DNA of 64,000 nucleotides from Hyphomicrobiales bacterium (GTDB lineage Bacteria; Pseudomonadota; Alphaproteobacteria; Rhizobiales; RI-29), in NCBI GenBank assembly GCA_016125495.1, contig WGLQ01000015.1:1-64000 (forward strand). The letters run 5' to 3'. The translations under genes were made by a program, and so were the position numbers. Positions 3,723 through 51,154 of this stretch are shown here, piece after piece (position 1 is the first letter of the stretch; each line of letters opens with the position of its first letter). The notes beneath the pieces were generated by a model. The model was not told the DNA's origin. It saw only the letters and a program-made list of their open reading frames with translations, and did not search any database.

Positions 3723-3857
3723 GGCCGGTGCACGGGTGACGGCGGCGCGATATGGCGCTCAATGGGCGGATCGCCGGTTCGGGCTCACCGGCCGGCGACG
3801 CCATTCATGGCGGCGGTCGCCGCTGGCGCGGAACAGCGAAGCGCGCCGCGCCTTACC

Positions 3858-5861
3858 TCACCGGGTGTCGCTGGTGATGGCACCCGCCGAGGCCGGCGCA
3901 CGATGGCGGCGCATGGCACGGATGATGGCGTCGACGTTGGCGCTCTCGGACAGCGAACCTTCATCGATCGCCAACCCCTGCCACTTGCGGTACCAGCTCT
4001 CGGCCTCGGCGACATCGGCCAGGGCCGTTCCCCCCGGAACCCGAGCCAGCAAGCTCGGATCGTAAGTTCGCGCCATGGCAAGGGCGACCTCGGCGCTCGC
4101 GATCACACGAGCCGTCGCCGCCAGGAGTTCTCGCGCCGACAGGATGTCGCCGCGCGCGACCATGGCATTCGCCTCGCCCAGGGCCACCGGCAACACGGCC
4201 TGGGCGACCAGGGGATTGGCCGCTTCGAGGCGAGCCCGCAAGGGAGGGTAAGCCGAGCCGACGAGATCGGCGACGCTCGAGTAGAGCGCGAGAGCGCGGC
4301 CAGCGGAGGCCTGCGCCTCGGCACCGGCATTGCGGCCCAGGATGATGGGATCATAAGTCTCGGCGAGCGCGAGAATGGCATCAGGGTGATCCGGCGTTGC
4401 CAACGGCCCGAGCAACGCGCGGGCGGTGCCGACGTCGCCCTTCTCGAGGTGCTCGGCCGCCAGCTCCATGGCGAGGCGCGGATCGCGATCGCTTGCCCGG
4501 CTGCTTTCAGTGGGCGTGGTCGAGAGTTCCACGTCGGCGTCCGTCGCGGTCAGGCGGACGGTGGGGGCGCGGTGGCTTTGGCGCTCGGCGGCCAGGACCT
4601 CGGTCTCGAGGGATGGAAATTCCGCGGCTCGTGCCGCGACAATCAGCGGCCGGACACCGCTCGCGGCGCGGCCCGGCGGCCGTGGAGCGAGTTCGATACC
4701 CGCAATCGACGGCTCTCGCGGCAGTGACGCCAATGTCCGCGTCGCCTGGACGCTCGACGGCATGCGGGAGGGGACCGCCTCGGACGCCCCGGTTTCGCGT
4801 TCGAGGGGCGCACCGCCCGAGCCGGGATCCCCGGGCTCGACGGCGAGCGTGCCGACGGTCGCGACTTTGGCGAGCGACCCGAACTCGACGGGGACGGAGA
4901 TATCGGCATCGACCTTCGATGCCTCGGCGCCCGCGGTGGGGCCGACAGCTCCCGAAAACGCGATCGCCCCCGGGACGGCGGCCTCCAAGCGCAGTTCCGC
5001 AGGTGCGTGAGCAACCGAGGCGATCGGGGCGCGATCGAGCGACGCCACGACGAGCCCGGTACCGGTGGAATTTCGATCCGGTGGCAACGAGCCCGAGGCC
5101 GCGCTCAGCAGTTCGTCAGTCGGCTCCGGCCAAGGCCCGAGTTGCTGCGCCGCGACGACGAGGCCGAGAACCAAGGCGCCGGCCGCGCTCGTGGCCATGA
5201 GCCATGGCCGGGCGCCATGAGCCGTAGTGCCACGCGCCTCGTTCGCGACACCTTGGAGGCGACGGGCGCGCCGGGAAATCGGGATGAATTGCGCCGCGCG
5301 TGGGCGGACGGGTTCTGGTTCGTCGGCGATGACGAGGTGTGACTGCGGTTCGTGCTTGCCGCTGCCCGCAGCTGCGGGTTCGCAATCCAGGTGGGGCGGG
5401 TTCGTCTCTATGCCGCCGGACCGGGTCGGAGCAACTCCCTGACGCGAATGCGCACCTTCCAGCCGCTGCTCGAGATCACGTAGTGTCGACGGAGCGCAGT
5501 CGGAAACCCCTGCGGGAAAGGCGAGAGGGCGCACGGCTAGGGCGGCAACGTTGCTCGCCACCGCCTCATCGGCCGGCGGGATGGGCGCGACTGGCGTGGC
5601 GGGCCTCTGCCCCGGGCGCACCGAGAAATCCATGTCGAGATCTGGAAGTGCGCGATGGGGCATGCCGCCGCGCACCGTGGTGCTGACGGCCGTGCGCACG
5701 GCACGAAGCACGCTTTCGCGCAGTTCGTCCGTGGCCGCCAACTGGCCTGAACCCTGGCGGGCCGGCGACGTCTTGTCGGCCTGCGCATGGTCGCCAGCCG
5801 CACGTCCCTCCTCGGCACGCTGTTCGGCCCGCGGGTCGTCTCCTCCAGCGACCGACGACAT
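3858..5861 (-). CDS. Single-pass membrane protein with periplasmic TPR/Sel1-like repeats, function unknown
   Basis: This 667-residue protein is not assigned to a family. The first 215 or so residues are Pro/Ala-rich and charged, with a basic cluster (SRRARRLQG) just before one membrane span at about 219-241 (TSAAGALVLGLVVAAQ). This predicts a cytoplasmic N-terminus and a periplasmic C-terminus. The middle is low complexity. The last 190 or so residues are helical with two related units, GDVGTARALLGPLA and GDILSARELLAATA, each followed by an ALA(E/M)xYDP motif, like TPR/Sel1 solenoids. ATG at 5861 is chosen; a TTG lies directly before it. It converges with the LysM gene, so the two could share an envelope role, but that is inference. 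Confidence 0.65.
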   Translation of the reverse strand: MSSVAGGDDPRAEQRAEEGRAAGDHAQADKTSPARQGSGQLAATDELRESVLRAVRTAVSTTVRGGMPHRALPDLDMDFSVRPGQRPATPVAPIPPADEAVASNVAALAVRPLAFPAGVSDCAPSTLRDLEQRLEGAHSRQGVAPTRSGGIETNPPHLDCEPAAAGSGKHEPQSHLVIADEPEPVRPRAAQFIPISRRARRLQGVANEARGTTAHGARPWLMATSAAGALVLGLVVAAQQLGPWPEPTDELLSAASGSLPPDRNSTGTGLVVASLDRAPIASVAHAPAELRLEAAVPGAIAFSGAVGPTAGAEASKVDADISVPVEFGSLAKVATVGTLAVEPGDPGSGGAPLERETGASEAVPSRMPSSVQATRTLASLPREPSIAGIELAPRPPGRAASGVRPLIVAARAAEFPSLETEVLAAERQSHRAPTVRLTATDADVELSTTPTESSRASDRDPRLAMELAAEHLEKGDVGTARALLGPLATPDHPDAILALAETYDPIILGRNAGAEAQASAGRALALYSSVADLVGSAYPPLRARLEAANPLVAQAVLPVALGEANAMVARGDILSARELLAATARVIASAEVALAMARTYDPSLLARVPGGTALADVAEAESWYRKWQGLAIDEGSLSESANVDAIIRAMRRHRAPASAGAITSDTR

Positions 5862-6262
5862 CAATCACGCCCCGTCCGCAAGCCTTACGTCCGATCCACC
5901 CGGGCCGCGCCGCGACGATCGCCGCCACTCCACGGTCCGTCCCCAATATCCGATCCGCCAGCCCCGATCCCGCGATCGGCGCGCCGACGGGCCACCGCTC
6001 CCGGCGATAGCCAGCAACGCGATGGCGCCGAACCGGACACGACTGAAACCCTGTCACGCGACGGCGACCGAAATGCGGCGATGGCGCCGCTTCCGCGTGG
6101 CTGCTCAAGTGGTTGCGGTAAGGAACCGGTCGAACGGCCAGAACCTGGAAGCCTCAACCAAGATTATTCTATACGGTATCCACAAGAATTCCACATTTCG
6201 TGGCTCTCAATACGGCTGGGGACCATGGCCGCAAGGCCGATCGTTGCGTACCGGGGGGCTCG
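5862..6262. other. 401-base intergenic region, no gene seen
   Basis: This region lies between two divergent genes, so it probably holds promoters for both. Bases 6155-6200 are clearly more AT-rich than the surroundings (contains TATTCTATAC), as expected near a promoter for the downstream plus-strand gene. I cannot assign a convincing -35 element. Open frames here have poor composition and no ribosome-binding site. Confidence 0.4.
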
Positions 6263-7177
6263 ATGTCGTTCTGGAGTAACAGTCTGGGGTTCGGCCGGGC
6301 AAAGGCCATCGGTAACGGGCATTTGCGGGTCAGCGAGTTGGGCGACGAGCAAAGGGACATCGACCACGAGGTGGCGCCAGAGGGCGATGGCGTCGTCATC
6401 AGTGTTGGCGCTAACGACGAACGACCGCTTTCGCAGCGCCTCGGAGAGGTCGACGCCGGGCGCGCCGAGCAGTATTCCAAGAGCATCCAACGCATCGAAG
6501 CGGCGGTCTATCTCGTCGCGGGCGCCGTCGCGTCGCTGGACTCCCTCGAAATCCAGATCGTTCGCGCAAAAGCCGAACTGGAGCGCCTGCGGCTCGCGGG
6601 CGAACCGGTCGATATCGACAAGGTCCACCTCGTCGTCCAACAGATGGTCGAGCATGTCGCCAACGTCGTCGGCGACTTCGAGAACGGCGACATCAACCTC
6701 CTGCGTGACGCACGCCTGCAGGTCCGCTTCGTGACGACCAAGGACCTCGACCGGCCCGTGCAGGACTATGGCCTCGACCTCACGCTCATCGCGCTCGACA
6801 ATCTCGCAGCGCTGCACGTGCGCGCGGGCCGCGACCCGGTCAAACTCGAGCGCTTCCTCGATGGACTGCACAAGATCGTGCACTCCAACATCCACATCCT
6901 CTCGAGCCTTATCCTCGCCCTCTTTGCATCGCGTGACTACACGAACGAAGTCACGCGGCTCGCGCTCGATATGGGCGTGCTCGGGCAGCAGGAGCGCCGC
7001 GAACTGCCCTCGCTCGCCGACCTCAAGTCCATGAACGAGGCCTTGCGGCGCAAACCCATCCTGCTCTCGGACGCAACGCGTGAGGCAGGCGAGCGATTGC
7101 GCCAGCAGTGCCAGGATGGTCGGAGCAGTCTGCTCGCGCTGCTGGAGCCCGGCCGGACCAGGACGGTCGGAAGCTAG
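6263..7177 (+). CDS. Helical protein of unknown function upstream of a dynamin-like GTPase
   Basis: This 304-residue protein starts at an ATG with GGGGGGCTCG in front. I do not recognise the family. It has no signal peptide and no clear membrane span. Most of it looks helical, with a long region at about 70-180 of heptad-like hydrophobic spacing (SLEIQIVRAKAELERLRLAG and following). The region near NIHILSSLILALFAS is the most hydrophobic. It lies 230 bases upstream of the dynamin-like gene on the same strand, so an operon and physical partnership are plausible. Bacterial dynamin-like proteins often have a co-encoded helical partner. That link is inference from position only. Confidence 0.7.
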   Translation: MSFWSNSLGFGRAKAIGNGHLRVSELGDEQRDIDHEVAPEGDGVVISVGANDERPLSQRLGEVDAGRAEQYSKSIQRIEAAVYLVAGAVASLDSLEIQIVRAKAELERLRLAGEPVDIDKVHLVVQQMVEHVANVVGDFENGDINLLRDARLQVRFVTTKDLDRPVQDYGLDLTLIALDNLAALHVRAGRDPVKLERFLDGLHKIVHSNIHILSSLILALFASRDYTNEVTRLALDMGVLGQQERRELPSLADLKSMNEALRRKPILLSDATREAGERLRQQCQDGRSSLLALLEPGRTRTVGS

Positions 7178-7407
7178 GGGACCCGACGCAGTTCCTGCGC
7201 GAACGCGCCCACCGCAAGGCGACAGGCCCGAAACCTCAGCGAAGCCGCTGACCCGTGGCGGTGCGCGCGCGGCCGTTCTTGCGAGTGTGCGAGGAAGGAT
7301 ATTGGCAAGGTGAGGCCGTCGGACGGCGGACGGCGTCCCGCGCGCCCCGGCGACGGAAGCCAAGGCCAAGCAGGGAAAGAAAGCCGGACACGGCGGGGAG
7401 GGGGACA

Positions 7408-9612
7408 ATGGGCGCGCGAGCGGCGAACATCGCGGCACTCGGGCGACTGGCGCTCGGCGGAGAGCTCAGGGAGGCAACCGACTCGCTGCTGGCACTCGGA
7501 GAGCAGCTGGCGCGCGAACTCGATGGCGAAGGGGCCGACCTCGTTCAGCGGGCCCTGCGGGCGATGCGGTGCGAAACCTGCCAGATCAGCGTGATCGGTC
7601 AGGTCAAAGGAGGAAAAACATCACTCCTGAACGCTCTGATCCGCCGACCGAAGCTGCTGCCCACGGCGGACGTGCCCTGGACGGCGGTCGTCACCCGCGC
7701 CCACTTCGGATTTCCCGAAGGCCCGAACAGCGGCGCGACGTTCACGTTCTTCGATGAAGCGGAGTGGACGCGGCTGGCGGAGGGCGGGGGACGGCTTCGC
7801 GAACTGGCGGAGACGCTGCTGCCGAACTTCAACCAGGGAGAACTTCAGCGCCAGCTCGAGCAGATGCGTTCGAACGTCAGCCGGAGGCTGGGAGACGATC
7901 TCGGTGGATACCTCGGAAAGGCACATCATTTCGAGGAGGCCAGCCCCGAGCTGATCGCCCGCTACGTCGCCGCGGAGGCGAGCGCCGGAGCAACGGAGCG
8001 ACAGCACTTCGCCGACATCACGCGCTCGGCGGATCTCTATTTCGATCTCGACAGCAGGGGATTCCCCCTGACCCTCATCGATGCGCCGGGCACGAACGAC
8101 CCGTTTCTCGTGCGTGAGGAGATCACACTGCGGATGATCGAGGACGCGGAGGCCTGCGTGGTCCTCGTATCCGCGCACGAGCCGATGGGGCTGTCCGATC
8201 TCGGACTTCTGCGGCTCCTCAGAGGACTGCGCAAGGAGCGGCTCCTGCTCTTCGTCAACCGGATCGACGAGGTCGACGATCTGCCCGATCGTGCCGAGGC
8301 ATTGCGCCAGCGCATCCGCAACGTGCTCGCCGCCGAACTGCCGGGAACGCGCGTGCCGATCGTGCTCGGAAGCGCAAGGTGGGCAAATCTGGCGCTGTCC
8401 GGAGATTCCTCCCGGCTCGCGCCGACCGAAGTGGACAGGCTCATCGCCTACGCGACGAGGCTGCTCGCACCCGATGAGGATGAGAAAGAAAACTGGCTTC
8501 GCAGATCTGGCGATGCGGAATTCCGCCAGGGGTTGATGCTGCGCTGCTCAGGCCTTGCCGACCTGGAACTCAACCTGTCCTGGCTCATGTCGCGCGGCCG
8601 GGCCAGCCACTATGCGCATCAGGCCAGCGCGACATTTGCAACGGTTGCCGAGAGTGTCGAGATGGGAATCCGTGGCGATCTCGAGGATATGCGAAGGCAG
8701 AAGGAGAACGCCCTCGACCAGAGCCGTCTGGTGGAAGCGGAGCGGAACCGGGCGGACCGCGAGCGTAAGCGCCTCAATTCCATAGCGGAACGGCTCAACG
8801 AATTGTGTCGGCGCTCGATGAGCGATCTCGACCAGGTCGGCCCGAGCCTTCGGTCGTCGCTCGAGGCGAGCCTTCGCAAGGAGATATACGCCTTCGCCCG
8901 CAACGAGCGCGCCCGGCTCCTGGAGCGGTTGGAAGGCGGTGGAGGTGGCGAGCGCGTCTATCGCTGCGACACCAGCCCGCTCCACCAACGCATCTCGGAG
9001 GTTTTCGTGCGCGAGTACCGGTGGGCGAGGCAGGGTCTCGTCAACACCCAGCGCATCACGGCCATCCGCATGCGTCACCTCCTCATGGAGGCGTTGCCGG
9101 ACATCGAGATCGATCTCGACTTCGCGGCGATCGGTAGCTCGTTCGTCTACCCGCCACTCGCCCCGCTCGGTCAGGCGCTGGCGTTCGATCTCGAGCAGAA
9201 GTGGTGGCAACAGTGGTGGCGAAGGCGGCGCGAGCCGGTGGTCACGGCCGGTGCGCTCGAACAGCTCATCCTGCACGAATTCCTTCCGGTGGCCCAGAAA
9301 CTCGTCGGCACAGCGACCGAGCAACTGAGCGAACAGGTGGATTCCGCCAAGTGGCGGATTTCCCTCAGCGGTCGAAAGGCTCAACAGACCATCGAGCACC
9401 TGGCATTGCGGCTCGGAGCGCTTCGGGCACCGGATACCGATGAATTGATCGGGGTGGAGACTGCAAGGGGGGCTTCAAGGGATTCTGGCACATCCTCGAC
9501 GGCGCCGCTTTCGGAGCGGATTTCAGCACTGGAGGTTCGGCTCGAAGCGTGCGCGCGACTGAAGCGGAAGCTGCAGACGCTGACGACGCGTCTCGAGGGG
9601 CTGCTGCGCTGA
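7408..9612 (+). CDS. Dynamin-like GTPase
   Basis: This 734-residue protein starts at an ATG with GGGGAGGGGGACA in front. The GTPase domain shows the P-loop GQVKGGKT (64-71), G3 DAPG at 225 and G4 NRID at 284, in the order and spacing of bacterial dynamin-family proteins. A coiled coil rich in charged residues follows (about 430-520). Near 570-610 is a hydrophobic stretch ending in [11 protein letters not shown], a candidate membrane-inserting paddle. The C-terminus is again helical. Dynamins remodel or protect membranes by GTP-driven assembly. The upstream gene may encode its partner. The specific process served here is unknown. Confidence 0.85.
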
Positions 9613-9645
9613 ACGCAGCGCCGCGCAGAGCACTGTCGCGGCTCC

Positions 9646-10968
9646 TCACGCCTCGTCGAGGCGCGTGACGATGACGCTGCTCAGCTCGAGCGTCTTGTGC
9701 ACCGGACAGAGATCCGCGATCTCGAGCAGGCGCGCGCGCTGCTCCCCTGTCAGGTCGCCTTCGACCTTTATTCTCCTCTCAAAGCAATCGATTCGCCCGA
9801 CGCGGCCCTCGCCGCAGTCGCTGCAATCCTCGGCGTGGACCTTGCCATGACTGACGTCGACGCGAACCCGCGTCAAGGACAGGCCTTTTCGCGCGCCGTA
9901 CATGCGCAGCGTCATGGAGGTGCAGGCTCCGAGCGCCGCGGCGAGGAGATCGTAGGGTCCGGGCCCCGAGTCGTCACCTCCGACGTCCAGCGGTTCATCC
10001 GCAAAGAGAATATGGGAGCCGCTCGAGACACGCTGCTGGAAACGCCCCACGCCGGTCTCCTCGATCCGGACGACTCCCGCAGGCGGTGGTCCGTCGCTCG
10101 CAGGGCCGAGAGCGGCAAGCTCGTCCCGGTTTTCCATTCCGCCAGGACCAACCCCAAGCGCACCCATTGCCGCCTGCTCCTTGCCCCCATCGTGCGCACC
10201 GTCGACAGCCACGTAGCGTTCCGCCCAGGCGGCGATGACGCGTGCACAATACGTCGCATCACGCCGGCGCGTCAGGAGGTGATCGGCGTCGTCGAGGGAG
10301 ACGAAGCTCTTGGGGTGGCGGGCGGCCACGAAAATCCTTGCCGCATTCTCGATGCCGACGACCTCATCGCGCGGAGCGTGCATGACGAGGAGCGCACGAC
10401 CGAGCGCGGCGACCTTGCCGAGGAGCCCGGCGGCGCGGGCGTCCTCGACGAACTCTCTCCGAATCTTGAATGTTCGACCGCCGAGCGTGACATCGGCCGC
10501 GCCGCGCTCCTCGATCTCGCCGAGCCGTGGAGAGATATGCGCGAGAACGTGAGCGACATCGGCCGGGGCACCGATGGTGGCGACGGCACGCACCTCGGGA
10601 ATGCGCGATGCGGCCGAGATCACTGCGGCACCGCCGAGGCTGTGTCCGATGAGAATGGAGGGTGCCGCGAGCACCCCGCGCAGATGATCGGCAGCGCGCA
10701 CGACATCCTCCACATTGGAGGAAAAATGCGTGCCGGCGAACTCACCCTCGCTTTCGCCGAGGCCCGTGAAGTCGAAGCGGAGCACGGCAATTGCCCGGTC
10801 GGCGAGCCCCCGGGCGATGCGCGTGGCGGCAAAAACGTCCTTGGAACAGGTGAAACAGTGCGCAAAGAGCGCGACTGCGCGGGGCGGTTCGGAGGGCAGC
10901 TCGAGCCGGGCCGAAAGCTTGGCGCCGTTCCAGCCCGCGAACGACATCTGTGTGGAGGTGCTGCCCAT
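9646..10968 (-). CDS. Alpha/beta-hydrolase fused to OsmC domain
   Basis: This 440-residue fusion begins at an ATG with AAAGGAACCGAT in front; an upstream in-frame GTG is less likely. The N-terminal 250 or so residues are an alpha/beta hydrolase with nucleophile elbow GHSLGG and later HAPRDEVVG and DADHLL segments that would supply the acid and histidine. A Gly/Ala-rich linker joins an OsmC/YhfA-like domain (about 310-440), with [20 protein letters not shown] and [10 protein letters not shown] holding the two cysteines expected for thiol peroxidase activity. This domain combination is known in proteobacteria. Its substrate is not established. It converges with the dynamin gene across 33 bases. 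Confidence 0.88.
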
Positions 10969-11068
10969 ATCGGTTCCTTTCGCCCGGCATCCGCCGCCTG
11001 CGGTTCCCACGCGACCCGCATCGCCCGCCCCAACGCCAAACTCACCTCCCGCCCGACCTGCCGGTCGC

Positions 11069-11563
11069 TCAGGGGGCGCGGTCGGATTTCAGCAATTCGG
11101 TGAGCCGCTGCTGCTCCTCGGGTGAAAGGGGCGCCACCTGGCGCGAGGCTGGCCTGCCGCGTGCGACCTCTCGGGTGCGCCAGAAGATGGCCAGCATGCC
11201 GAGCAGAAACAGCGTCGGCGGCGCCAGCCACAATACCAAGGTATGCGTTCCAAGGCGCGGGCGAAGCAGCACGAACTCGCCATACCGCGCGACGACGTAG
11301 TCGATCACCTCGGCATCGGAGTCGCCGGCGGTGAGCCGTTCGCGGACGACGATGCGCAGGTCCTTTGCAAGCGGCGCGTTCGAATCGTCGATCGACTGAT
11401 TCTGGCAGACCACGCAGCGCAGTTCCGCCGAAAGGGACCGCGCGCGCTTCTCCAACGCCGCATCGGAGAGGATCTCGTCGGGCTGGACGGCGAACGCCGC
11501 GGTGGCCGCGATGATCGAGGCCGAGAGCATCCCGAGGAGGGCGATCTGACGACCGGCCTTCAT
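11069..11563 (-). CDS. ccmH: Cytochrome c maturation protein CcmH/CycL
   Basis: This 164-residue protein has a signal peptide ([17 protein letters not shown]) and the CcmH redox motif in [10 protein letters not shown], the C-x2-C pair that reduces the apocytochrome haem-binding cysteines in the periplasm. A membrane span near [19 protein letters not shown] anchors it, with a short cytoplasmic tail. Its ATG overlaps the ccmF stop (ATGA), so the two are translated together. It is the last gene of ccmI-ccmE-ccmF-ccmH. It is expected to work with CcmF and CcmI in haem ligation. Confidence 0.95.
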
Positions 11564-13545
11564 GCGCCCTCCGTCACCGGCTCGCGCGACCTTGCAAGAC
11601 GCGGCGCGCCGATCCGGAGCCGGCGATCGGAGAGGGAGACGATCGCGGCGAAGAACATGATCACGGCGCCGATCCAGATCCAACGCACGAGGGGATGGAA
11701 ATTAACGCGCACCGCGTAGCTGCCGTCACCCGCCGAATCGCCGAGCGTCAAATAAAGATCGCCGAGAAGGGAGGGGCGGATGCCCGCTTCCGTGGTGGCC
11801 TGGCGCGGCGCGACGTAAAGGCGCTTGGAGGGCTCCAAGACGAAACGTACGGCGCCGGCCTCGTCGAGAACCGCGAAGGTGCCGACAGTCTCGCGGTAAT
11901 TCGGTCCCATGCGATCGCTCGTACCATCGAAACGTAGGGTATAGCCGGCGATCGAAACCGTCTCACCCGCACGCATCGAGACGATCCGTTCACTCATCCA
12001 GCCGCTGGAGCCGACGATCCCGAGCACCATGACCCCGACGCCGGCATGGGCGAGCAGGGTGCCGTACGACGAGCGAGGCAGCCCCCGGGCACGGGTCCAG
12101 GCCTCGGACCAGCGGCGCTCGTGGAGCCGAATGCGCCACGCCCACTCGCTGACGGCGCCGAGTATCACCCAGACGCCCAGTGCCGCGCCGACGAGTGCGA
12201 GCCAGGGAGCCGGTTGGGCGACGGCGAGGAGGACGAGCGGCACGAGCAAACCGATCGCAGCGGCCGCATAGAGCCGCTCGGAGGCCGCAAGCAGGTCGCC
12301 ACGCTTCCAGGAAAGCAGCGGGCCGAACGGCAGTGCCAGCAACAGTGGCAGCATCAACGGCATCGTCACCATGTTGAAGTAGGGCGGTCCGACGGAAATC
12401 TTCTCCCCGGTGCGCGCCTCGAGTAGGAGGGGATAGAGAGTGCCGATGAGGACGGCCGCGCAGAACACGGTCAGCAGCAGATTGTTGAGGACGAGACTGG
12501 CCTCGCGACTGATCGGGGAAAAGATGCCGCCATTGCGAAGCAGCGGCGCCCGCCAGGCGAAGAGACCGAGCGCACCACCGATGAACACCCCCATGATCGC
12601 CAGGATGAAGGCGCCACGCTCGGGGTCGACCGCGAAAGCGTGCACCGACGTCAGCACTCCCGAGCGCACCAGGAAGGCACCAAGGAGGCTCAGCGAGAAC
12701 GTCATGATCGCGAGCAGAATGGTCCAGACCTTCATGGTGTCGCGCTTTTCCATGACGCTGGCGCTGTGGAGGAGCGCGGTGCCGGCGAGCCACGGCATGA
12801 AGGAGGCATTCTCGACGGGGTCCCAGAACCACCATCCGCCCCAGCCGAGCTCGTAATAGGCCCACCAACTGCCCATGGCGATGCCGAGCGTCAGGAACAT
12901 CCAGGCGGCCAGTGTCCAGGGTCTCACCCAACGTGCCCAGACCGCATCGATGCGACCATCGATGAGCGCGGCGACCGCGAAGGCAAAGGCGATGGAGAAG
13001 CCGACGTAGCCGGCGTAGAGGAACGGCGGATGGAACGCGAGTGCCGGGTCCTGGAGGATCGGATTGAGGCCCTGCCCCTCGACGGGGGCGGGATCGATGC
13101 GCGAGAAGGGGTTGGACGTCAGTGCGATGAAGAGGAGAAAGGCAAAACCGATCGCGCCCTGCACACCGAGGACATTGGCCTTCAGCCGGTCGTGCAGGTT
13201 CTGCCCGAATGTCGCGACACCGGCGCCGAACAGCGCCAGGATGAGGACCCAGAGCAGCATCGAGCCCTCGTGATTGCCCCAGACGCCCGAAAGCCGGTAG
13301 ATCAGCGGCTTGGCGCTGTGCGAGTTCTCGTAGACGTTGCGGACGGAAAAGTCCGAGCCGACATAGGCGATCGTCAGGGAGATGAACGCGGTCACGAGGA
13401 GTGCCAGCTGGGCCTGGGCGGCGGCGACGGCCATACGCGGCAGGCGGGCGTCGCCCAGCGCCATTCCGACGAAAGGCAGGCACATCTGCGCGAAGGAGAC
13501 CGCAACCGCCAGGAGGAGAGCGAAATGGCCGAGTTCGATGGTCAT
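11560..13545 (-). CDS. ccmF: Haem lyase subunit CcmF
   Basis: This 661-residue polytopic membrane protein is the normal length for CcmF. The tryptophan-rich WWD domain is visible ([20 protein letters not shown]), which holds haem during ligation to apocytochrome c, and conserved histidines flank it. The ATG at 13545 opens into [12 protein letters not shown], the usual CcmF beginning, and has GGAGG ten bases upstream. Its stop overlaps the ccmH start. It follows ccmE by 25 bases, the common alphaproteobacterial order. The ccmABCDG genes are not in this window. Confidence 0.97.
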
Positions 13546-43590: not shown

Positions 43591-45282
43591 TCACTGCCAA
43601 TAGTACGCCAGTAGCGAACCGCCCAGCAGCACCGTGGTCCAGAAGGCCATGCTGCCGGTCGGCCATTGGCGACCGAGCAAGCCATGTGGCCCGTTCTGGC
43701 GGGTGAGGGTGTCCAGCGCATAGGAGCCACTCGCTCGCACGACGCCCGAGCCGAACCTCCAGAGTTCGGAGAGCAGCATCCAGAGCGTTGCGGCCACCCA
43801 TGCTCCGGGGCGACGCCAGAGCCAGTCGAAATCGAGCGTGATCGTCAGCGTGCGCCTCAGCCAGCCGAGCATCAGGAAGAAGGCGAGGCCGGAAAAGAGC
43901 AGCAACTGCAGCTGATAGACGATGTGCGATGCCGTGTTGGGCTCGTAGTCCACCGGGTGCGGCAGGAGATCGTAGAGCAGGCGGGGGGCAACGCCCACGG
44001 CAATGCAGGCGACCGAGAGCAGCGCCATGACGGCAAGCATGTTGAGCGGCGGCTCGGCCGGGCGAAGGCCGGAATCCCGGTCGAAAAAGACGAACCAGGG
44101 AAGCTTCAGACCAGCATAAATCATGGCACCGGCCGAGGCTGCCGCGAGCAGAAACCAAACGGTCGCCAGATGGGCCTCGGCCACGGATGCGGTGATGAGC
44201 GATTTGGCGGAAAAGCCCGCCGTGAACGGGAACGCAGCGAGCGAGAGCGCGCCGATCACGGTGAAAAGGCAGGTGAGCGGCATGGTCCGGAACAATCCGC
44301 CGAGATCCGTACACTTGCGCTTACCGGTCATCAGCAGCACCGATCCGGCCGCCATGACCAAGAGGGTCTTGTAGAGGATGTGCGCGAAGGCATGGGCTGC
44401 CGCGCCGTTGAGCGCCAGTGTCGTGCCGACACCGACGGCCGTTACCATGAAGCCAACGTGATTTACGATGCTGTAGGCGAGAACGCGGCGCACGTCGTTC
44501 TCGAGGATCGCAAAGACGATCCCGTAGAACACCATGAAGAGACCGATCGGCACGAGCAGTTCGACCCCCGGAAAGCCGCGGATGAGCGCATACACAGCCG
44601 TCTTGGTCGTAAATGCGGAAAGGAAAACCATGCCGCTCCAGGACGCCTCGGGATAGCTGTCGGGCAGCCAGGCCGCGAGCGGTGGGGCGCCGGCGTTGAT
44701 GAGGATGCCGGCCAGCATGAGCACGCGCGGCCAAGTCGAGATATCGAAGGCCACGAAGGCGATCGAACCCGTCGAGGCCACCTCGCCGGCAATCCCCGCC
44801 ATGAGCAGGACCCCGCCGAGAAAGTGAATGGCGGCATAGCGCAGGCCCGCCCCGCGCGCCGCAGGACCGCCCGCGAAGACGACGAGCGTCGAGGCGATGG
44901 CCATCACTTCCCAGAAAACGAAGAGCGTGATCAGATCACCCGCAAACACCGCCGAAATCGCCGCACCGCCATAAACGAAGGCGGCCGGTATCTCGAGACG
45001 GTTCGACTGGCCGAGCGCAAAGACCGCCCCCGTCACGGCCACCAGCGAAAAGACGAGGCCGAACAAACGGCTCAGATCGTCGCCCGCAACGGGGACCAGG
45101 GTGTGGCCGAGCCATTGGTGGGTCAGCTGCGGCCCATCGCCGGTCGCGAGCACGAGGAGCACCGAGAGGATCGGGGCGCCGAGCACCAATAGCGGTCTGA
45201 GCACGGCCGGCAGCAGCGGCAGCAGCAGGCCGGCGACGATGAGCGGCAGGCCCGGCGGATACGTGTTCGCCTCAATCATCAT
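43591..45282 (-). CDS. Mrp-type antiporter-like subunit D'' (third D-type subunit)
   Basis: This 563-residue polytopic protein belongs to the NuoL/MrpD proton-translocating family. Key residues are visible: Glu in LFVFWEVMAIAST, Lys in SAFTTKTAVYALIRGF, and a broken-helix region around NHVGFMVTAVGVGTTLALN. The C-terminal 100 residues extend beyond MrpD, with amphipathic segments (DFDWLWRRPGAWVAATLWML). It is the last gene of the operon and overlaps the 83-residue gene. It could carry ions or stabilise a larger complex. Confidence 0.88.
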   Translation of the reverse strand: MMIEANTYPPGLPLIVAGLLLPLLPAVLRPLLVLGAPILSVLLVLATGDGPQLTHQWLGHTLVPVAGDDLSRLFGLVFSLVAVTGAVFALGQSNRLEIPAAFVYGGAAISAVFAGDLITLFVFWEVMAIASTLVVFAGGPAARGAGLRYAAIHFLGGVLLMAGIAGEVASTGSIAFVAFDISTWPRVLMLAGILINAGAPPLAAWLPDSYPEASWSGMVFLSAFTTKTAVYALIRGFPGVELLVPIGLFMVFYGIVFAILENDVRRVLAYSIVNHVGFMVTAVGVGTTLALNGAAAHAFAHILYKTLLVMAAGSVLLMTGKRKCTDLGGLFRTMPLTCLFTVIGALSLAAFPFTAGFSAKSLITASVAEAHLATVWFLLAAASAGAMIYAGLKLPWFVFFDRDSGLRPAEPPLNMLAVMALLSVACIAVGVAPRLLYDLLPHPVDYEPNTASHIVYQLQLLLFSGLAFFLMLGWLRRTLTITLDFDWLWRRPGAWVAATLWMLLSELWRFGSGVVRASGSYALDTLTRQNGPHGLLGRQWPTGSMAFWTTVLLGGSLLAYYWQ

Positions 45283-45523
45283 AATAGGTATCCGGGCGCT
45301 TGAGGACGAGGCCGAGAAGCTTCGATCCAGCCACGAGGACGACGCACACGGCAAAGCCGAACCAGGCGCCGAAACCGAAGCCGTCCTCGATGCCGAAATG
45401 GTTGTAGTGCTCGACGAAAAGATCGGCGAGCACGGTCAGGGCGAGGAGTGCGGCGAACGCTCCCCAGAGCACGCGCACGGTGCCCGGTCGCACCAACCAG
45501 TGATCCTGACGCGGCTCGCTCAT
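45272..45523 (-). CDS. Small two-span membrane protein of the Mrp-like operon
   Basis: This 83-residue protein has two membrane spans (VLWGAFAALLALTVLADLFV; FGFAVCVVLVAGSKLLGLVL) joined by HYNHFGIEDGFGFGAWF, and an end LKRPDTYYDD. It sits between two D-type subunits with ATGA overlap on one side and overlap on the other. It is probably an accessory subunit of the same complex. Its position is conserved in some related operons as I recall, but I cannot verify that. Confidence 0.8.
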   Translation of the reverse strand: MSEPRQDHWLVRPGTVRVLWGAFAALLALTVLADLFVEHYNHFGIEDGFGFGAWFGFAVCVVLVAGSKLLGLVLKRPDTYYDD

Positions 45524-47031
45524 CGGCCTTCTCCAACCACGACCATCTGACGTGCCAGTTCGAGAACAGGGTCGGGATAGAAAAAGAGGGCGAGCGTCAT
45601 GAGCGCGGTCATCGAAATGGCGAACACGATCTGCCAGGGCGCGCCGTGGAATTCATCGGCGCGGGCATGACCAGACGCATGCGCGGCGCCGACGTCGGCG
45701 GCGGGGGGCAGGAACGCGGTGTAGATGATCGGGAGGAAATAACAAGCGTTGAGCACCGTGCTCGCCACGATGACGGCAACCGCGAACCATTGCCCGCTGC
45801 CAGCCGCCCCCGAAAGGATGAACCACTTGCCGAGAAAGCCGGCCGTCGGCGGCAACCCGATCATACTTATCGCGCCGATCGCGAATGCGCCCATGGTCAC
45901 AGGCATACGCCGTCCGATGCCACGCATCTGGCTGATCTCGGTGATGTGGGCGGCGGTGTAGACGGAGCCGGCGGCAAAAAAGAGCGTGATCTTGCTGACG
46001 GCGTGCGCGGCGATGTGCATGGCGGCGCCAACGGCCGAGATCGGTGTCAGGATGGCGGCCGCCAGGATCACGTAGGAGAGCTGCGAGACCGTCGAATAGG
46101 CGAGGCGCTTCTTGAGGTTGTCCTGGTGGAGCGCGATGAGGGAGGCGGTTATCAGCGTGAAGCCGGCGAGCCACACGAGCCACTCGCCCTGACCCGAGGC
46201 GGAAAGCGCGTCGAGACCGAAGGTGTAGACCACGACCTTGAGGAGCGTGAAGACGCCGGCCTTGACGACCGCAACGGCGTGCAGCAGCGCCGAGACCGGG
46301 GTCGGCGCTACCATCGCGGCCGGCAACCAGAAATGGCCAGGCATCAGGGCGGCCTTGCCGATCCCGAAGGCGAAGAGAAAGAGGAGAAAGCCGAGCGTCG
46401 CATAGTCCGCCTTGCCGGCCAGGACACCACCAGCGGTGAAATCCGTGGTTCCGGCGAGCGCATAGGTGAAAATCACGGCCGGCAGCAGCAGGACCACCGA
46501 CGATCCCATCAGGAGCGCGAGATAGACGCGTCCGGCGGCGACCGCCTCGCTGTTGGCCTTGTGGACGACAAGCGGGTAGGTGGAGATCGTCAGGATCTCG
46601 TAGAAGATGAAAAGCGTGACGAGGTTCGCCGAGAGGGCGAGCGCGATGGTTGCTGCAATCGCGATGGCGAAGCAGAGATAGAAAACGGTCTGACGCGGCT
46701 CGTCGTTGCCACGCATGTAGCCGATCGAATAGATCGAATTCACGATCCAGAGGCCGCTCGCGATCACCGCGAACAGCATGCCGAGAGGCTCTACGGCGAA
46801 CGCGATCGAAAAGCCGGGCGCGATCTCTGCGACCTCGAGACCAGGGCGGGCGCCGGCGAGCACACGCCCGGCGAGTTCGACGATCCCGAGAAAAAGCGCT
46901 GCGGCCGTCGCGAGCGTCGCGGTCTCGCGCAGATTGCGCTCGAACGAGAACAGCAGAATTAGCAGGCAGCCAAGCGGGGCGACCAGCAGGATCGCGGCGA
47001 GCAGCTCGACATCGGAAAGGGAAGCGAGCAT
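45520..47031 (-). CDS. Mrp-type antiporter-like subunit D'
   Basis: This 503-residue polytopic protein is a second NuoM/MrpD-like subunit. Glu in VTLFIFYEILTISTY, Lys in GIGKAALMPGHFWLP and in VVKAGVFTLLKVV are the expected ion-path residues. It begins at 47031, one base shared with the upstream stop (TGATG), and ends overlapping the small gene (ATGA). As such it belongs to the same complex as the neighbouring D subunit. Confidence 0.9.
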   Translation of the reverse strand: MLASLSDVELLAAILLVAPLGCLLILLFSFERNLRETATLATAAALFLGIVELAGRVLAGARPGLEVAEIAPGFSIAFAVEPLGMLFAVIASGLWIVNSIYSIGYMRGNDEPRQTVFYLCFAIAIAATIALALSANLVTLFIFYEILTISTYPLVVHKANSEAVAAGRVYLALLMGSSVVLLLPAVIFTYALAGTTDFTAGGVLAGKADYATLGFLLFLFAFGIGKAALMPGHFWLPAAMVAPTPVSALLHAVAVVKAGVFTLLKVVVYTFGLDALSASGQGEWLVWLAGFTLITASLIALHQDNLKKRLAYSTVSQLSYVILAAAILTPISAVGAAMHIAAHAVSKITLFFAAGSVYTAAHITEISQMRGIGRRMPVTMGAFAIGAISMIGLPPTAGFLGKWFILSGAAGSGQWFAVAVIVASTVLNACYFLPIIYTAFLPPAADVGAAHASGHARADEFHGAPWQIVFAISMTALMTLALFFYPDPVLELARQMVVVGEGR

Positions 47032-48545
47032 CAGGGACCCCTTGCGATCAGCATCTCGGCGGCCGCGCGCGCGAGGTCGGCCCCGTATGTCGCATCGAGA
47101 CCGAGGGCCACGACCGCGAGCGTCAGGACCGCGAGCGGGACCGTCATGGTCCACGGCGAACTGGCAACCGACGGCTTGCGGTAGGCCATCACCTCCGGCT
47201 GCGGGCGCATGAACGCCAGTTCCAGGACGCGCCCGACGTAGAACAGGGAAATCAGCGAAGAGACCATGATGGCGATCACCATCCACCACCAACCCTTCTC
47301 TATGGCCCCGAGCGCCAGATACCACTTGGAAACGAAGCCGGCCGTGCCCGGCACACCGACGAGGCTCATGCCCGCGATGGCGAAGGCGAGCAACGTCAGC
47401 GGCATCCGCCGGCCGATGCCGGCGAGGTCCTCGAGCCGACAGGTGCGCCACTGCAGGAACACGAAGCCGACGGCGAGGAAGAGGGCGGCTTTCGTGACGG
47501 CATGGTTGAGGAGATGCACGAGGCCGCCCGTCAGGCCGTCGAGATTGGCGAGGCCGACCCCGAGCGTCATGTAGCCGATCTGTGAGACGGAGGAATAAGC
47601 GAGCAGCCGCTTGATGTCGCTCTGGAAGAACGCCACGATCGAGGCGCCGAAAATGCCGGCGAGCGAGAGCGCTATCAGGATGTCGTTGATCGGGAGGGCC
47701 TCGAAGATGCGGCTCGCCGTGAAGACGGAATAGAAATACCGCACCATGAGATAAATCGCGACCTTGGTGGCCGTGGCGGCGAGGAAGGTCGTCGCGAAAG
47801 ACGGCGCATAGGCATAGGCGCCAGGCAACCAGCTGTGGAGCGGAAAGAGCGCGAGCTTGAGGCCGAGGCCGACGAAGAGGAAGGCGAGGGCGGCGAGAAC
47901 GGGCGGGGCGAAGCCGAGCGCACCGAGACGCGTCGACACGTCGACCATGTTGAGGCTGCCCGTCAGACTGTAGAGGAAGCCGACACCGATGACATAGAAG
48001 GTCGCCCCGATGGTCCCCATGACGAGATACTGGTAGGCCGCGACCAGTGCCCGGCGGTCGCGACCGAGCGCGATCATCGCATAAGCTGAGAGCGAGGAAA
48101 TCTCGAGGAATACGAACGCGTTGAACGCGTCACCCGTCACCACGATTCCGACCAGGCCACAAAGGCAAAGCAGGTACATGGTGTAGAACCACGCCTGCTT
48201 GTGCGATGCGATCTCGCTTTCGACGCTGCGCAGCGCGAAGGGCACCATCACCGCCGATACACCGGTGACGAGGAACAGCAGGAAGGCGGACAGCCGGTCG
48301 ATCCGGTACTCGATCCCCCACGGCGGTGGCCAGCCACCGAGATGGTAGGAGATCACCTCCCCCCCGGCGACCTTGCCGAGGAGGAGAAACGCCATCACCG
48401 CGCACGCCCAGGTGACGAGCAGCGAAACGGCCCATGCGAGATGGCCGCGCGGCAACACGGCGGTCAGCAGCGAGCCGATCAGCGGCGTCACCACAACGAG
48501 CGCCGGCAACTGCTCGGCGAGGCCCATGGTCGCGGATGCGTTCAT
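47031..48545 (-). CDS. mnhD: Mrp antiporter subunit D
   Basis: This 504-residue polytopic protein is a MrpD/NuoN-like subunit: AFNAFVFLEISSLSAYAMIA with Glu, GLGLKLALFPLHSWLPGAYA and TATKVAIYLMVRYFYS with Lys, SDIKRLLAYSSVSQIGYMTL. It follows the MrpC gene with a short overlap (ATGA) as in mrp operons. It is expected to form the main antiport channel. Confidence 0.92.
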   Translation of the reverse strand: MNASATMGLAEQLPALVVVTPLIGSLLTAVLPRGHLAWAVSLLVTWACAVMAFLLLGKVAGGEVISYHLGGWPPPWGIEYRIDRLSAFLLFLVTGVSAVMVPFALRSVESEIASHKQAWFYTMYLLCLCGLVGIVVTGDAFNAFVFLEISSLSAYAMIALGRDRRALVAAYQYLVMGTIGATFYVIGVGFLYSLTGSLNMVDVSTRLGALGFAPPVLAALAFLFVGLGLKLALFPLHSWLPGAYAYAPSFATTFLAATATKVAIYLMVRYFYSVFTASRIFEALPINDILIALSLAGIFGASIVAFFQSDIKRLLAYSSVSQIGYMTLGVGLANLDGLTGGLVHLLNHAVTKAALFLAVGFVFLQWRTCRLEDLAGIGRRMPLTLLAFAIAGMSLVGVPGTAGFVSKWYLALGAIEKGWWWMVIAIMVSSLISLFYVGRVLELAFMRPQPEVMAYRKPSVASSPWTMTVPLAVLTLAVVALGLDATYGADLARAAAEMLIARGP

Positions 48546-48910
48546 CGATCCTCATCCATCTCAAGGATGCGGTCCTCGTCGATCGATCCGTAACTCTCGT
48601 GGATGCGAACGACGAGCGCGAGGCCAAGGGCGATTGTCGCGACACCGACGACGATCGCGGTCAGGATCAGTACGTGCGGCAACGGGTTGGAATAGACCGC
48701 GAACCGTGGATCGAGGATTGGCGCCGTACCGCCGAGGATCTTGCCCGGTGAAATGTAGAGGAGAAAGACGGAGGTCTGGAACAACGCGACGCCAACGAGC
48801 TTCTTGATGAGGTTGTCCTTGGCGATGACAATGTAGAGCCCGGCCACCATGAGGAAGATGGTGATCCAGTGATTGTAGTGGGCGATGAATTCGGAAAGCA
48901 AAGGGTTCAT
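48542..48910 (-). CDS. mnhC: Mrp antiporter subunit C
   Basis: This 122-residue protein has three membrane spans and the NuoK-like pattern of MrpC: VAGLYIVIAKDNLIKKLVGV, FQTSVFLLYISPGKILGGTA and PHVLILTAIVVGVATIALGL. It overlaps mnhB and mnhD with ATGA junctions. Confidence 0.93.
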   Translation of the reverse strand: MNPLLSEFIAHYNHWITIFLMVAGLYIVIAKDNLIKKLVGVALFQTSVFLLYISPGKILGGTAPILDPRFAVYSNPLPHVLILTAIVVGVATIALGLALVVRIHESYGSIDEDRILEMDEDR

Positions 48911-49326
48911 CGGCCACGCCCCGCAAAGAGATAGAAAAGCGCCGCCATGGTCGAAGCGACCGTGACGAGAACACCGAGTTCGACGAGGATGATGCCGATG
49001 TGCTGGCCGTGCGCCGGATCGTGGCTGTCGAGAACGGAATAGTTGAGGAACTGGCCACCGAGAAGCATCCCGGCGACGCCGACCCCGGCAAAGATCAGAA
49101 CGCCGAGCGGCGCAAGCACGGCCAGAACGCGCAGCGGCACCACGCGCTGGACGGCATCGAGACCGAAAATGAGCGCATAGAGGATGAGGGTCGCCGCCAC
49201 GATCACACCGGCCTGGAAGCCACCGCCAGGTCCAAAGTCGCCGTGGAACTGCACATAGAGCGCGAAAATCAGCATGAATGGCATGAGGAGCTTGGCGACG
49301 ACGCGCAGGATGATGTCGAGCTTCAT
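48907..49326 (-). CDS. mnhB: Mrp antiporter subunit B
   Basis: This 139-residue protein has the MrpB signature VQFHGDFGPGGGFQAGVIVA and membrane spans near residues 10-25, 40-60, 70-90 and 110-135 (HIGIILVELGVLVTVASTMA). It overlaps the upstream A' gene by four bases. It belongs to the membrane domain of the complex. Confidence 0.94.
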   Translation of the reverse strand: MKLDIILRVVAKLLMPFMLIFALYVQFHGDFGPGGGFQAGVIVAATLILYALIFGLDAVQRVVPLRVLAVLAPLGVLIFAGVGVAGMLLGGQFLNYSVLDSHDPAHGQHIGIILVELGVLVTVASTMAALFYLFAGRGR

Positions 49327-50021
49327 TTGCGATGCCCCTTGCCGCGCGCGTGCTGTGGCCGGCGCTTGGTTGCGGCTGCGCCGCCCTCGGCGCGCGGCTT
49401 CAAGTCGTCGGTGAAGAGGCGCGGAATGCCGCGCGTGGCTTCCGCCTTGACATCGTCGGGCAGAGCCTCGCCCTCGTCATCGGCGGTTCGGGCGCCGGGG
49501 CGCCGCATGCCGGTCAGCAACATGAAAACGCCAATGCCCGCGGTGAAGACGACAGCCACCTCGCCGAGCGTATCCATGCCACGGTAGCTCGCCAGAATCG
49601 ACGTCACGACGTTGGGCACCGTCGTCTCCTCGATGGACTTGGCGAGGTATCGGTCGGCGACGTGTTTGTGGATCGGCGCGTCGGCGGTGCCAAACTCCGG
49701 CAGGCCGAGCGTGGCGTAGATCAGAACGCCCGCGGTGACCAGCGCGAGGGTCAGCGCCACGCCCCCCGAGTGCAGCGGACCGGCCGAGCGCGCGCTCGTG
49801 AGGTAGAGGGCACTGAGGAACAGTACGGTCGACATGCCGGCGCCGACGGCCGCCTCGGTCATCGCGACATCGACGGCATCGAGCACCACGAACACGCTCG
49901 CCATGAGGAAACTATAGATGCCGGCGAGGATGACGACGCCGAACAGGTCCTTCATGCGCATGATGGCCAGAGTGACGATGGCCATCAGGGTCAGGAGGAT
50001 CATGTTGATGAAGGCTTCCAT
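49323..50021 (-). CDS. Mrp subunit A C-terminal half as a separate protein (A')
   Basis: This 232-residue protein corresponds to the DUF4040 part of MrpA plus an MbhE-like region: MRMKDLFGVVILAGIYSFLM, VDVAMTEAAVGAGMSTVLFL, and VTSILASYRGMDTLGEVAVV. The large NuoL-like first half of MrpA is missing from the operon. The last 60 residues are a charged, low-complexity cytoplasmic tail. GGAGGCGGC precedes the ATG. This split form is known from membrane-bound hydrogenase and related Mrp-type modules. Confidence 0.88.
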   Translation of the reverse strand: MEAFINMILLTLMAIVTLAIMRMKDLFGVVILAGIYSFLMASVFVVLDAVDVAMTEAAVGAGMSTVLFLSALYLTSARSAGPLHSGGVALTLALVTAGVLIYATLGLPEFGTADAPIHKHVADRYLAKSIEETTVPNVVTSILASYRGMDTLGEVAVVFTAGIGVFMLLTGMRRPGARTADDEGEALPDDVKAEATRGIPRLFTDDLKPRAEGGAAATKRRPQHARGKGHRK

Positions 50022-50031
50022 GCCGCCTCCC

Positions 50032-50400
50032 TCAGCGCCGTGCAGCCGGCTTGCCGGCGCGCTGATGGCGCGGATCGGCGAGCTTCAGCGAATCGTCGGA
50101 GACCCGCGGCCTCAGCCCGGCATAAAGCGCGGCGCGCGCCAGGGCATGGCTCGCAACCGGGCTCGTGAAAAAGAACAGCAGGAGAAGAACGAGCAACTTC
50201 AGAGAGATCAGGGTGAATCCGGACTCCAACACCAAGCCGGCGATGATGAGCGCGGCGCCGAGCGTGTCGATCATGCCGGCCGCGTGCATGCGGGTGAACA
50301 TGTCCGGCATGCGGATGATCCCGATCGCGCCGGTGACAACGAAGAACGAGCCGAGCCCGAGGAGGCTGGCCGTTGCGATTTCCCGGGCCAGCTCCAGCAT
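50032..50400 (-). CDS. mnhG: Mrp antiporter subunit G
   Basis: This 122-residue protein has the MrpG pattern TGAIGIIRMPDMFTRMHAAG and LGAALIIAGLVLESGF, then a hydrophobic run LKLLVLLLLFFFTSPVASHA. ATG at 50400 shares a base with the mnhF stop (TGATG); a TTG just before is ignored. The C-terminus is basic. Confidence 0.94.
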   Translation of the reverse strand: MLELAREIATASLLGLGSFFVVTGAIGIIRMPDMFTRMHAAGMIDTLGAALIIAGLVLESGFTLISLKLLVLLLLFFFTSPVASHALARAALYAGLRPRVSDDSLKLADPRHQRAGKPAARR

Positions 50401-50681
50401 CAAGCCTCGTCCTCCGTCCCGCTGCCGCCGAGCGTGCCGTAGCGCCAGTATTTGAGGACCGCCAGCGTACCAACCAGGTTCAAGAGACCATAGGTGATGC
50501 CGATGTCCAGGAAATCCGGCCGTCCGGTCATGAAGCCGAACACTGCAAGGAGGAGAATGGCGAGGGTGCCGATGGTGTTGGCGGCGAGTACCCGGTCGAA
50601 AACCGTCGGGCCGCGCAGCGCGCGAACCAAGGCAAGAGCGAGGGCAACGAGAATTGCCGTGGCGACCGCGGCGAACATCAT
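50400..50681 (-). CDS. mnhF: Mrp antiporter subunit F
   Basis: This 93-residue protein has the MrpF pattern RGPTVFDRVLAANTIGTLAI and FLDIGITYGLLNLVGTLAVL with three membrane spans. It starts at 50681, sharing a base with the mnhE stop (or at the next ATG, 50678). Confidence 0.94.
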   Translation of the reverse strand: MMFAAVATAILVALALALVRALRGPTVFDRVLAANTIGTLAILLLAVFGFMTGRPDFLDIGITYGLLNLVGTLAVLKYWRYGTLGGSGTEDEA

Positions 50682-51154
50682 CAGCTCCCCTCGAAGGATT
50701 TGACGCGCCTGTCCATGGAACCGGCGACGACGTCTTCGGCGCCCTCCTTGGTCAAGGCATGCACCGTGAGCGACTGGCCGGCGATGCCGACCGTGACCGT
50801 TCCCGGCGTCAGGGTGATGGAGTTGCCATAGGTGCAGAGACCGACGGCGGTGCGCTGATGGCCCTCGACCTCGACCATCCTCGGTGAGATGGGCAGCGAC
50901 GGGGACCAGATGATGCGGGCGACCGAGACGCTGGATTTGGCGATTTCCCAAGCGAGCCAGGGCCAATAGGTCATGGCGCCCCAGGCAAATCCGATCGGGT
51001 GGCCTTCATCGTCGATGAGGCCCATGCGGCTGGTCAACGCCACGACGCCCAGGACCGATAGCGCGCCGAGCGCCAACAGCATGGGTGTATAGTGGCCGGA
51101 AAGCAGCAGCCAGAAGACCGAAAGAAAGAAAGCCAGGCTCGCGAGCCGCATCAT
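50681..51154 (-). CDS. mnhE: Mrp antiporter subunit E
   Basis: This 157-residue protein is MrpE-like: N-terminal membrane spans (LAFFLSVFWLLLSGHYTPML), WLAWEIAKSSVSVARIIWSP, then the cytoplasmic part GNSITLTPGTVTVGIAGQSL. It is the first gene of the ten-gene operon. GGGGGA lies directly before the first ATG, so the second ATG (51151) may be used. Confidence 0.93.
   Translation of the reverse strand: MMRLASLAFFLSVFWLLLSGHYTPMLLALGALSVLGVVALTSRMGLIDDEGHPIGFAWGAMTYWPWLAWEIAKSSVSVARIIWSPSLPISPRMVEVEGHQRTAVGLCTYGNSITLTPGTVTVGIAGQSLTVHALTKEGAEDVVAGSMDRRVKSFEGS

Follow-up and report, generated by a model that had tools for sequence, protein, structure and literature searches.

What kind of machine is encoded when a set of Mrp antiporter genes carries three large antiporter-like subunits, together with an MrpA to which no NuoL-like half is fused? 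This question is raised by an operon in the stretch of Hyphomicrobiales DNA that we analysed (64,000 nucleotides, contig WGLQ01000015.1, positions 1 to 64,000; hereafter the window), for which a preceding sequence-only reading had considered either a distinct antiporter or the membrane part of an energy-coupled complex. We propose, with a probability of about 0.72, that the operon specifies an Mrp (CPA3)-type cation/proton antiporter in which the N-terminal half of MrpA has been replaced by a unit of three proteins, designated here D2-S-D3—that is, two antiporter-like subunits with a small protein encoded between them.

Layout and conservation of the operon

On the minus strand of the window, at 43591-51154, ten genes follow one another in the order E-F-G-A'-B-C-D1-D2-S-D3; because eight of the nine junctions overlap and the remaining one leaves a gap of 10 nt, the ten most likely constitute one operon. 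The sequence-only reading had given the same extent and order, with the last four genes written as D, D', small, and D''; and all ten genes are confirmed by the open reading frames (ORFs). United in this one operon are the subunits E, F, G, B, C, and D of Mrp in the broad sense along with the MrpA C-terminal domain, and no other MNHE/Mrp system was found in the genome.

The operon begins with MrpE (50681..51154, 157 aa; PF01899, MNHE, 5.5e-30), the sole MNHE match of the whole genome, followed by MrpF (50400..50681, 93 aa; MrpF_PhaF, PF04066, 1.5e-16), which protein has an Asn at the canonical Asp35 position, and by MrpG (50032..50400, 122 aa from its ATG; PhaG_MnhG_YufB, PF03334, 1.9e-25), for which an alternative TTG start is possible 3 nt upstream. 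A', the C-terminal part of MrpA (49323..50021, 232 aa), consists of the MbhD and MbhE domains only (PF13244, 1.1e-16; PF20501, 1.9e-10) and, unlike the canonical MrpA of groups 1 and 2, has no NuoL-like N-terminal half fused to it. MrpB (48907..49326, 139 aa; MnhB, PF04039, 2e-29) and MrpC (48542..48910, 122 aa; Oxidored_q2, PF00420, 2.5e-21) also exceed the cut-offs of NF009162 and NF005624, respectively. Next come D1, a subunit of the MrpD/NuoN type (47031..48545, 504 aa; PF00361, 1.3e-58); D2, of the MrpA-N/NuoL type and devoid of both the long lateral helix HL and transmembrane helix 16 (45520..47031, 503 aa from its ATG; PF00361, 1.3e-54, and PF00662, 2.3e-05); the small conserved protein S (45272..45523, 83 aa), which could be assigned to no family; and D3 (43591..45282, 563 aa), an antiporter-like subunit with a predicted HL and terminal membrane helix that scores 617.8 bits against NF009310, whose cut-off is 564. 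The start sites of F (50681), G (50400), D2 (47031), and D3 (45282, or alternatively 45279) were revised from the sequence.

Proton_antipo_M is present in three of the operon's proteins (Pfam; 1.3e-58, 1.3e-54, and 1.5e-39). The sequence-only reading had spoken of two extra NuoL/M/N-like proteins: the three such proteins are indeed there, but only one of them goes beyond the canonical set, in which the N-terminal half of MrpA and MrpD are already two subunits of this kind.

The arrangement recurs widely. The cut-off of NF009310, the D3 model, was exceeded in 23 of the 61 genomes of the order set, in 63 of the 289 of the class set, and in 21 of the 398 of the phylum set, each of these sets including the window's own genome and some genomes belonging to more than one set. 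For the comparison of loci we used 80 named loci found through alignment to D3, which were the best 80 of at least 584 relatives and not a random sample; these come from Alpha-, Beta-, and Gammaproteobacteria, several Deltaproteobacteria, metagenome-assembled genomes (MAGs) of Desulfobacterales, Nitrospira, Nitrospinota, Planctomycetota, and one Brocadiaceae MAG. Of the Mrp-type named loci, 59 extend for 7.5 kb or more ahead of D3 (the complex I locus L126 having been removed), and 55 of these display the full order E-F-G-A'/B-C-D1-D2-S-D3, with A' and B called separately in 37 and with a single call, which we read as a fused pair, in 18; and, since 55 of the 59 testable loci share that order, the layout is not a product of chance. 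Of the four exceptions, L114 has no G call and L132 has a B called between E and F; the other two are weighed below. Outside the bacteria, a haloarchaeal plasmid (Haloarcula marina, L193) carries at 3140-10587 the genes E-F-G-DUF4040-B-C-D-D-D, with a D3 over the NF009310 cut-off (641.2) and with S absent; that operon is flanked by genes for a TrkA C-terminal domain and a universal stress protein. The distinct antiporter of the sequence-only reading is supported by this conserved and ordered operon, together with the residue signature of its own that is described below.

The D2-S-D3 unit

S has no match in Pfam or NCBIfam at E 0.001 and nothing credible among the solved structures of the PDB; from the sequence, read by eye, it apparently has two membrane helices. 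A profile of S nevertheless matches in all 80 named loci, and S stands directly before D3 in all 80 (79 by script and L118 by hand, where the end of S, at 8996, is followed by a D3 match from 9001; the D3 ORF of this locus was missed by the D3 profile and is not in the D3 counts). As a control, the profile found no match in three canonical Mrp clusters (L184-L186) nor in the nuo region of the window's genome (L183), and it detected S in L188, the only other operon of the three-subunit type among the fetched stretches. L188 and the canonical L184 lie within about 90 kb of each other on contig 19 of a single genome and form a natural pair for a comparison of function. From its constant place and the overlapping genes, S is probably a connector between D2 and D3, although it looks absent from the one archaeal operon that we read. 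A fusion of S to D2 in the haloarchaea was considered and rejected: the archaeal D2 is longer, yet the S profile does not match it.

The named loci, having been found through D3, are uninformative as to whether D2 and D3 occur together; we therefore turned to the class set, with a match limit of 1e-130 and with D2 identified by NF006236. All 66 genomes with a D3 match also had a D2 match, while 66 of the 74 genomes with D2 had D3 at the same limit. Searched more loosely, two of the remaining eight have a D3 that, by reading, is split between contigs; another two have a diverged full-length D3 (366-369 bits) adjoining D2; and the last four, three of which are from one genus, have only a weak antiporter-like ORF (at most 209 bits) adjoining D2; D3—clear, broken, or diverged—is hence present in 70 of the 74 D2-bearing genomes of the class.

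The unit is not confined to Mrp operons, in that 9 of the 80 named loci have D2-S-D3 in a complex I cluster. Eight of those nine have one or two NuoM/N-type genes after it; the ninth, L126, stops shortly beyond D3. By eye, ORFs resembling NuoA-D and NuoI-K lie ahead of the unit in L126, and the NuoJ- and NuoK-type genes of this locus cluster with those of the green loci. Pfam places NuoH, I, J, and K directly before D2 in two complex I loci, with NuoG as well in L131. In the pSymA of Sinorhizobium meliloti the annotated sequence is nuoJ, nuoK, 'antiporter subunit D family', hypothetical protein, 'antiporter subunit D', nuoM, nuoN; and the green complex I is described as having two MrpD-like subunits in place of NuoL (PMC9040806). 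Judged by kinship, the D2-S-D3 of the window is the same unit that replaces NuoL in the rhizobial green complex I; S, too, can be aligned between the Mrp-type and the complex I settings.

That kinship was taken from a 68-row tree, in which D1 falls in the MrpD/NuoN/MbhH half (97/95); MrpA-N and NuoL join each other (100/99), with D2 sister to both (92/91); D3 forms a separate clade (100/100); and D2 and D3 each form one clade with their counterparts from the green complex I (100/100). Within those clades the Mrp-type and green-type pairs separate, as indicated by the support for the Mrp-type D2 (96/87), the Mrp-type D3 (98/88), and the green D3 (99/82), with that for the green D2 group being weak (66/4). 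A quick tree of 92 rows agrees on D2 and D3, and places D1 with MrpD at 88. D3 loosely joins MbsH' (94/86), at a point where the program flags long branches meeting. Among solved structures the best relative of D1 is MbsH (6u8y_H, 2.3e-65). On these grounds D2 would take the place of MrpA-N/NuoL without being demonstrably a split-off half of MrpA, and D3 would be the true addition; the sequence-only reading was accordingly right in that the NuoL-like half is absent from A', but, because D2 falls on the MrpA-N/NuoL side, that half looks replaced rather than lost.

In canonical Mrp the bracing HL belongs to MrpA (PMC7419157), and in the three-subunit operon the brace is predicted to be on D3. 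The AlphaFold2 (AF2) model of D3, calculated on a translation of 564 residues, has a helix at 488-531 followed by a terminal helix at 543-563, with a mean predicted local distance difference test score (pLDDT) of 87.1 that is lower in that part; over the range 6-531 the model superposes on NuoL chains, their HL included (Z 44.5, 507 residues aligned, root-mean-square deviation 4.6), and matches MrpA, MrpD, and MbsH' almost as well. The AF2 model of D2 (pLDDT 89.1) stops after the core helices and has no HL. The D3 tail has a median length of 104 residues in 70 Mrp-type loci versus 126 in 9 complex I loci, a difference of about 22; since it reaches at least 125 in 11 of the 70 Mrp-type loci, the idea that the HL tail acts as a length ruler set by the host complex is suggestive only. 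In L131, a Nitrospiria MAG (2090-11873), the unit follows NuoG-H-I-J-K, of which the NuoJ gene is split into two ORFs, and the D3 tail there is 152, or 26 above the complex I median.

Ion paths and alternative explanations

To compare residues we named the positions in the transmembrane helices (TMHs) by analogy with PMC7419157, left out ORFs scoring at most 30 bits, and kept one complex I row (L126) in the D2 and D3 rows of the Mrp-type alignment, the other counts having been corrected. Almost without exception, the rows of D1 and D2 retain the Glu of TMH5 and the Lys of TMH7, TMH8, and TMH12; in D3 the Glu of TMH5 and the Lys of both TMH8 and TMH12 are kept. For the cation path, as described in PMC7419157, Asp792 and Glu796 of MrpA-C are kept in 60 of 60 lettered rows; Asp29 of MrpF is kept too, and the conserved Pro and His columns of MrpE and MrpG are common to the family and canonical Mrp.

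Building on the observed gene content, order, kinship, and residues, and on the predicted HL, we would picture the assembly, the direction of transport, the ion, and the stoichiometry as follows. E, F, G, A', B, and C would make up the cation-handling part, and D1—by homology—an MrpD-type proton channel, to which D2, with its full set of key Glu and Lys residues, would add a second proton-channel subunit; S would join D2 to D3; and D3 would lie at the distal end, its predicted HL reaching back alongside the complex in the manner of NuoL and MrpA. Protons flowing inward via D1 and D2, and perhaps D3, would then drive the export of a cation via A', C, and F, whose coordinating residues are altered; if D3 were to conduct, more protons would be used per cation than in Mrp. 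Because of the subunit set, the intact channels of D1 and D2, and the retained exit carboxylates, such a proton-driven cation export is the most likely function.

Several observations weigh against this proposal. In the literature searched we found no measured activity for any member of the family. Two of the named loci depart from the common order: in L083 no E-B precedes C-D1-D2-S-D3, and in L084 S-D3 is present but D2 is not, which exceptions may be either assembly errors or real variants. (Ahead of its C-D1-D2-S-D3, L083 has two D1-like, or NuoM/N-like, ORFs and three ORFs on the reverse strand.) In D3 the Lys of TMH7 is replaced by Asn in 64 of 80 rows, including that of the window, and is present in 16; by context, the Asn occurs in 55 of 71 Mrp-type rows, the window counted, and in all 9 complex I rows. 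That the window encodes a third proton channel is consequently not assured, and D3 may be mainly a distal brace. All 6 comparison sequences have the Asp35 of MrpF, where 59 of 61 rows of the family have Asn; the column of MrpA Glu706 is Gly in 58 of 58 lettered rows, with a Glu one turn before, aligned to Glu69 of MbhD, in 53 of the 58; and in MrpC a Gln is fixed (64 of 64 lettered rows) and the His pair is absent, the window reading Gln-Thr-Ser-Val-Phe where the MrpC of A. flavithermus aligns with Ser-His-Gly-Ala-His, and the family having Thr, Ser, or other residues at the position of His37 and Phe, Tyr, or Ile at that of His40.

Those changes at three places of the cation path, family-wide and found by eye also in the one haloarchaeal operon, could mean that the complex works like Mrp and yet exchanges neither Na+ nor K+, being instead a carrier for another ion or a pH-driven machine with another purpose. 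We consider that explanation unlikely: the Asp/Glu pair of MrpA-C, Asp29 of MrpF, and the Pro/His positions of MrpE and MrpG are kept; in the four canonical Mrp loci used for comparison, MrpC 37 is Asn and MrpC 40 is Asn or His, so that the His37/His40 pair does not define groups 1 and 2; and the membrane-bound hydrogenase MBH, which differs at the His40 of MrpC, has nonetheless been proposed to bind Na+ (PMC7419157). Quite unlikely, to our judgement, is an ordinary Mrp whose MrpA is simply split, with D2 as the N-terminal half, A' as the C-terminal half, and D3 and S as dispensable additions. The position of D2 on the MrpA-N/NuoL side would agree with such a split, and a clade of D2 with MrpA-N is not rejected (p-AU 0.166 in the approximately unbiased test); but MrpA-N joins NuoL before D2 does, so that the phylogeny proposed in the sequence-only reading for recognizing a plain MrpA N-terminal half among the D subunits gave no clean identification. 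Moreover, with the HL on D3 and none on D2, the complex would lack its brace if MrpA had only been split; and D3 accompanies D2 in nearly all of the D2-bearing class genomes, the four others having the weak antiporter-like ORF mentioned above in the adjoining position. Another type of Mrp with a split MrpA, having only two large subunits of which the second comprises 619-646 aa, occurs in two genomes of the same taxonomic order (L190 and L191); those large subunits have long branches, and their place in the tree is unsure.

The operon could, finally, be the membrane arm of a redox-driven complex with its peripheral subunits encoded elsewhere in the genome. The sequence-only reading, which had remarked on the likeness to the membrane module of MBH-type complexes, correctly noted that no redox subunits are present, as none was found among the ten genes by ORFs or Pfam. 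The likeness holds in part: A' has the MbhD-type Glu, and D1, C, F, and the D3 profile score best against MBS/MBH chains, above those of Mrp, whereas for D2 the highest-scoring chains are those of NDH/NuoL, and A' does about as well with MBS as with Mrp chains. D2-S-D3 does, moreover, serve a redox complex in the green complex I. Yet the genome, which is 99.35% complete, contains no large subunit of a NiFe hydrogenase and has a single NuoD, on contig 9 with the ordinary nuoLMN, for which reasons a redox partner elsewhere in the genome, for which the sequence-only reading had suggested looking, is unlikely. Nor does any gene recur in more than 7 of 81 loci in the flanks of the Mrp-type loci (at most 3 genes before and 4 after). 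We thus regard a redox-driven complex as very improbable. The flank cluster found in 7 of the 81 loci looks cold-shock-protein-like by eye, and the biggest one overall, in 8 of the 81, consists of the NuoJ-type genes of the complex I loci. In the window the operon is preceded by a SelR-domain (MsrB-type) gene on the opposite strand and followed by a ROS/MUCR regulator, while Rfam at gathering scores has no match across the whole window. The genome has seven Proton_antipo_M proteins: the three of the operon, three on contig 9 (NuoL, M, and N), and one encoded next to a DabA gene. That last protein, DabB-like and of 516 aa (contig 29, 8871-10421), adjoins DabA (6447-8852; PF10070, 2.1e-247), with a LysR-like regulator adjacent by eye, and the pair (L182) is a DAB-type transporter of inorganic carbon.

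Relation to known systems and significance

With the CPA3 antiporters of groups 1 and 2 (Mrp/Mnh/Pha), the antiporter proposed here shares E, F, G, B, C, MrpD, the MrpA C-terminal domain, and the exit Asp/Glu pair; it differs in that A' has no fused NuoL-like half, in the presence of D2-S-D3 instead, and in the changed residues of C, F, and A'. A review defines Mrp groups 1-3, the clusters of group 3 being irregular (PMC5703873); these, as Aphanothece mrpCD1D2EFGAB and Microbacterium TS-1 mrpFGBCDDAE, likewise have an irregular order and more than one MrpD-like gene, although the gene order, as described there, differs from that of the window. In Nitrospira, nuoL/nuoM-like genes beside mrpD have been called probable additional mrp/mnh genes (PMC7784846, PMC12342949), and are probably the same system, since a Nitrospira MAG among our loci (L127) has the full gene set; the available parts of those accounts make no mention of S or of a link to complex I. 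The MBH and MBS of the Thermococcales have in common with the window an MbhD/MbhE-type A' with the MbhD-type Glu, and a MbsH' to which D3 is loosely joined, whereas the window operon has no redox module and has more antiporter-like subunits. The green complex I of rhizobia and the Complex_I_3 of Manganitrophaceae (PMC9040806) resemble it in the D2-S-D3 unit, located between nuoK and nuoM in pSymA; their unit, however, is joined to NuoM/N and a redox arm and has the longer D3 tail, while the window operon is without NuoA-K genes.

The D2/D3 pair was already known from the green complex I (PMC9040806), and the three-subunit version of Mrp looks widespread though little described; of S, the shared D2-S-D3 unit, and the residue signature we found no description in the literature searched, whose coverage was partial. 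A broader view, which we offer as tentative, is that D2-S-D3 may be an end module that moves as a whole within the complex I superfamily, bringing S as its connector and an HL brace whose length depends on the complex that hosts it. A redox-free antiporter and respiratory complex I would then have exchanged this module, and the antiporter would use more protons per cation, along a rebuilt path, than canonical Mrp does. If this were true, the antiporter could hold steeper ion gradients than canonical Mrp. For complex I, the question is whether added antiporter-like subunits can change the number of protons moved per turnover; and a unit common to a redox-free antiporter and complex I would make that coupling ratio measurable in the antiporter by the thermodynamics of ion gradients alone. 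S, which many bacterial phyla encode between D2 and D3 and for which neither Pfam nor NCBIfam has a model, would provide a simple genetic handle. The family is common (63 of 289 class genomes), and in it the plain annotation 'subunit D' hides a real difference in architecture.

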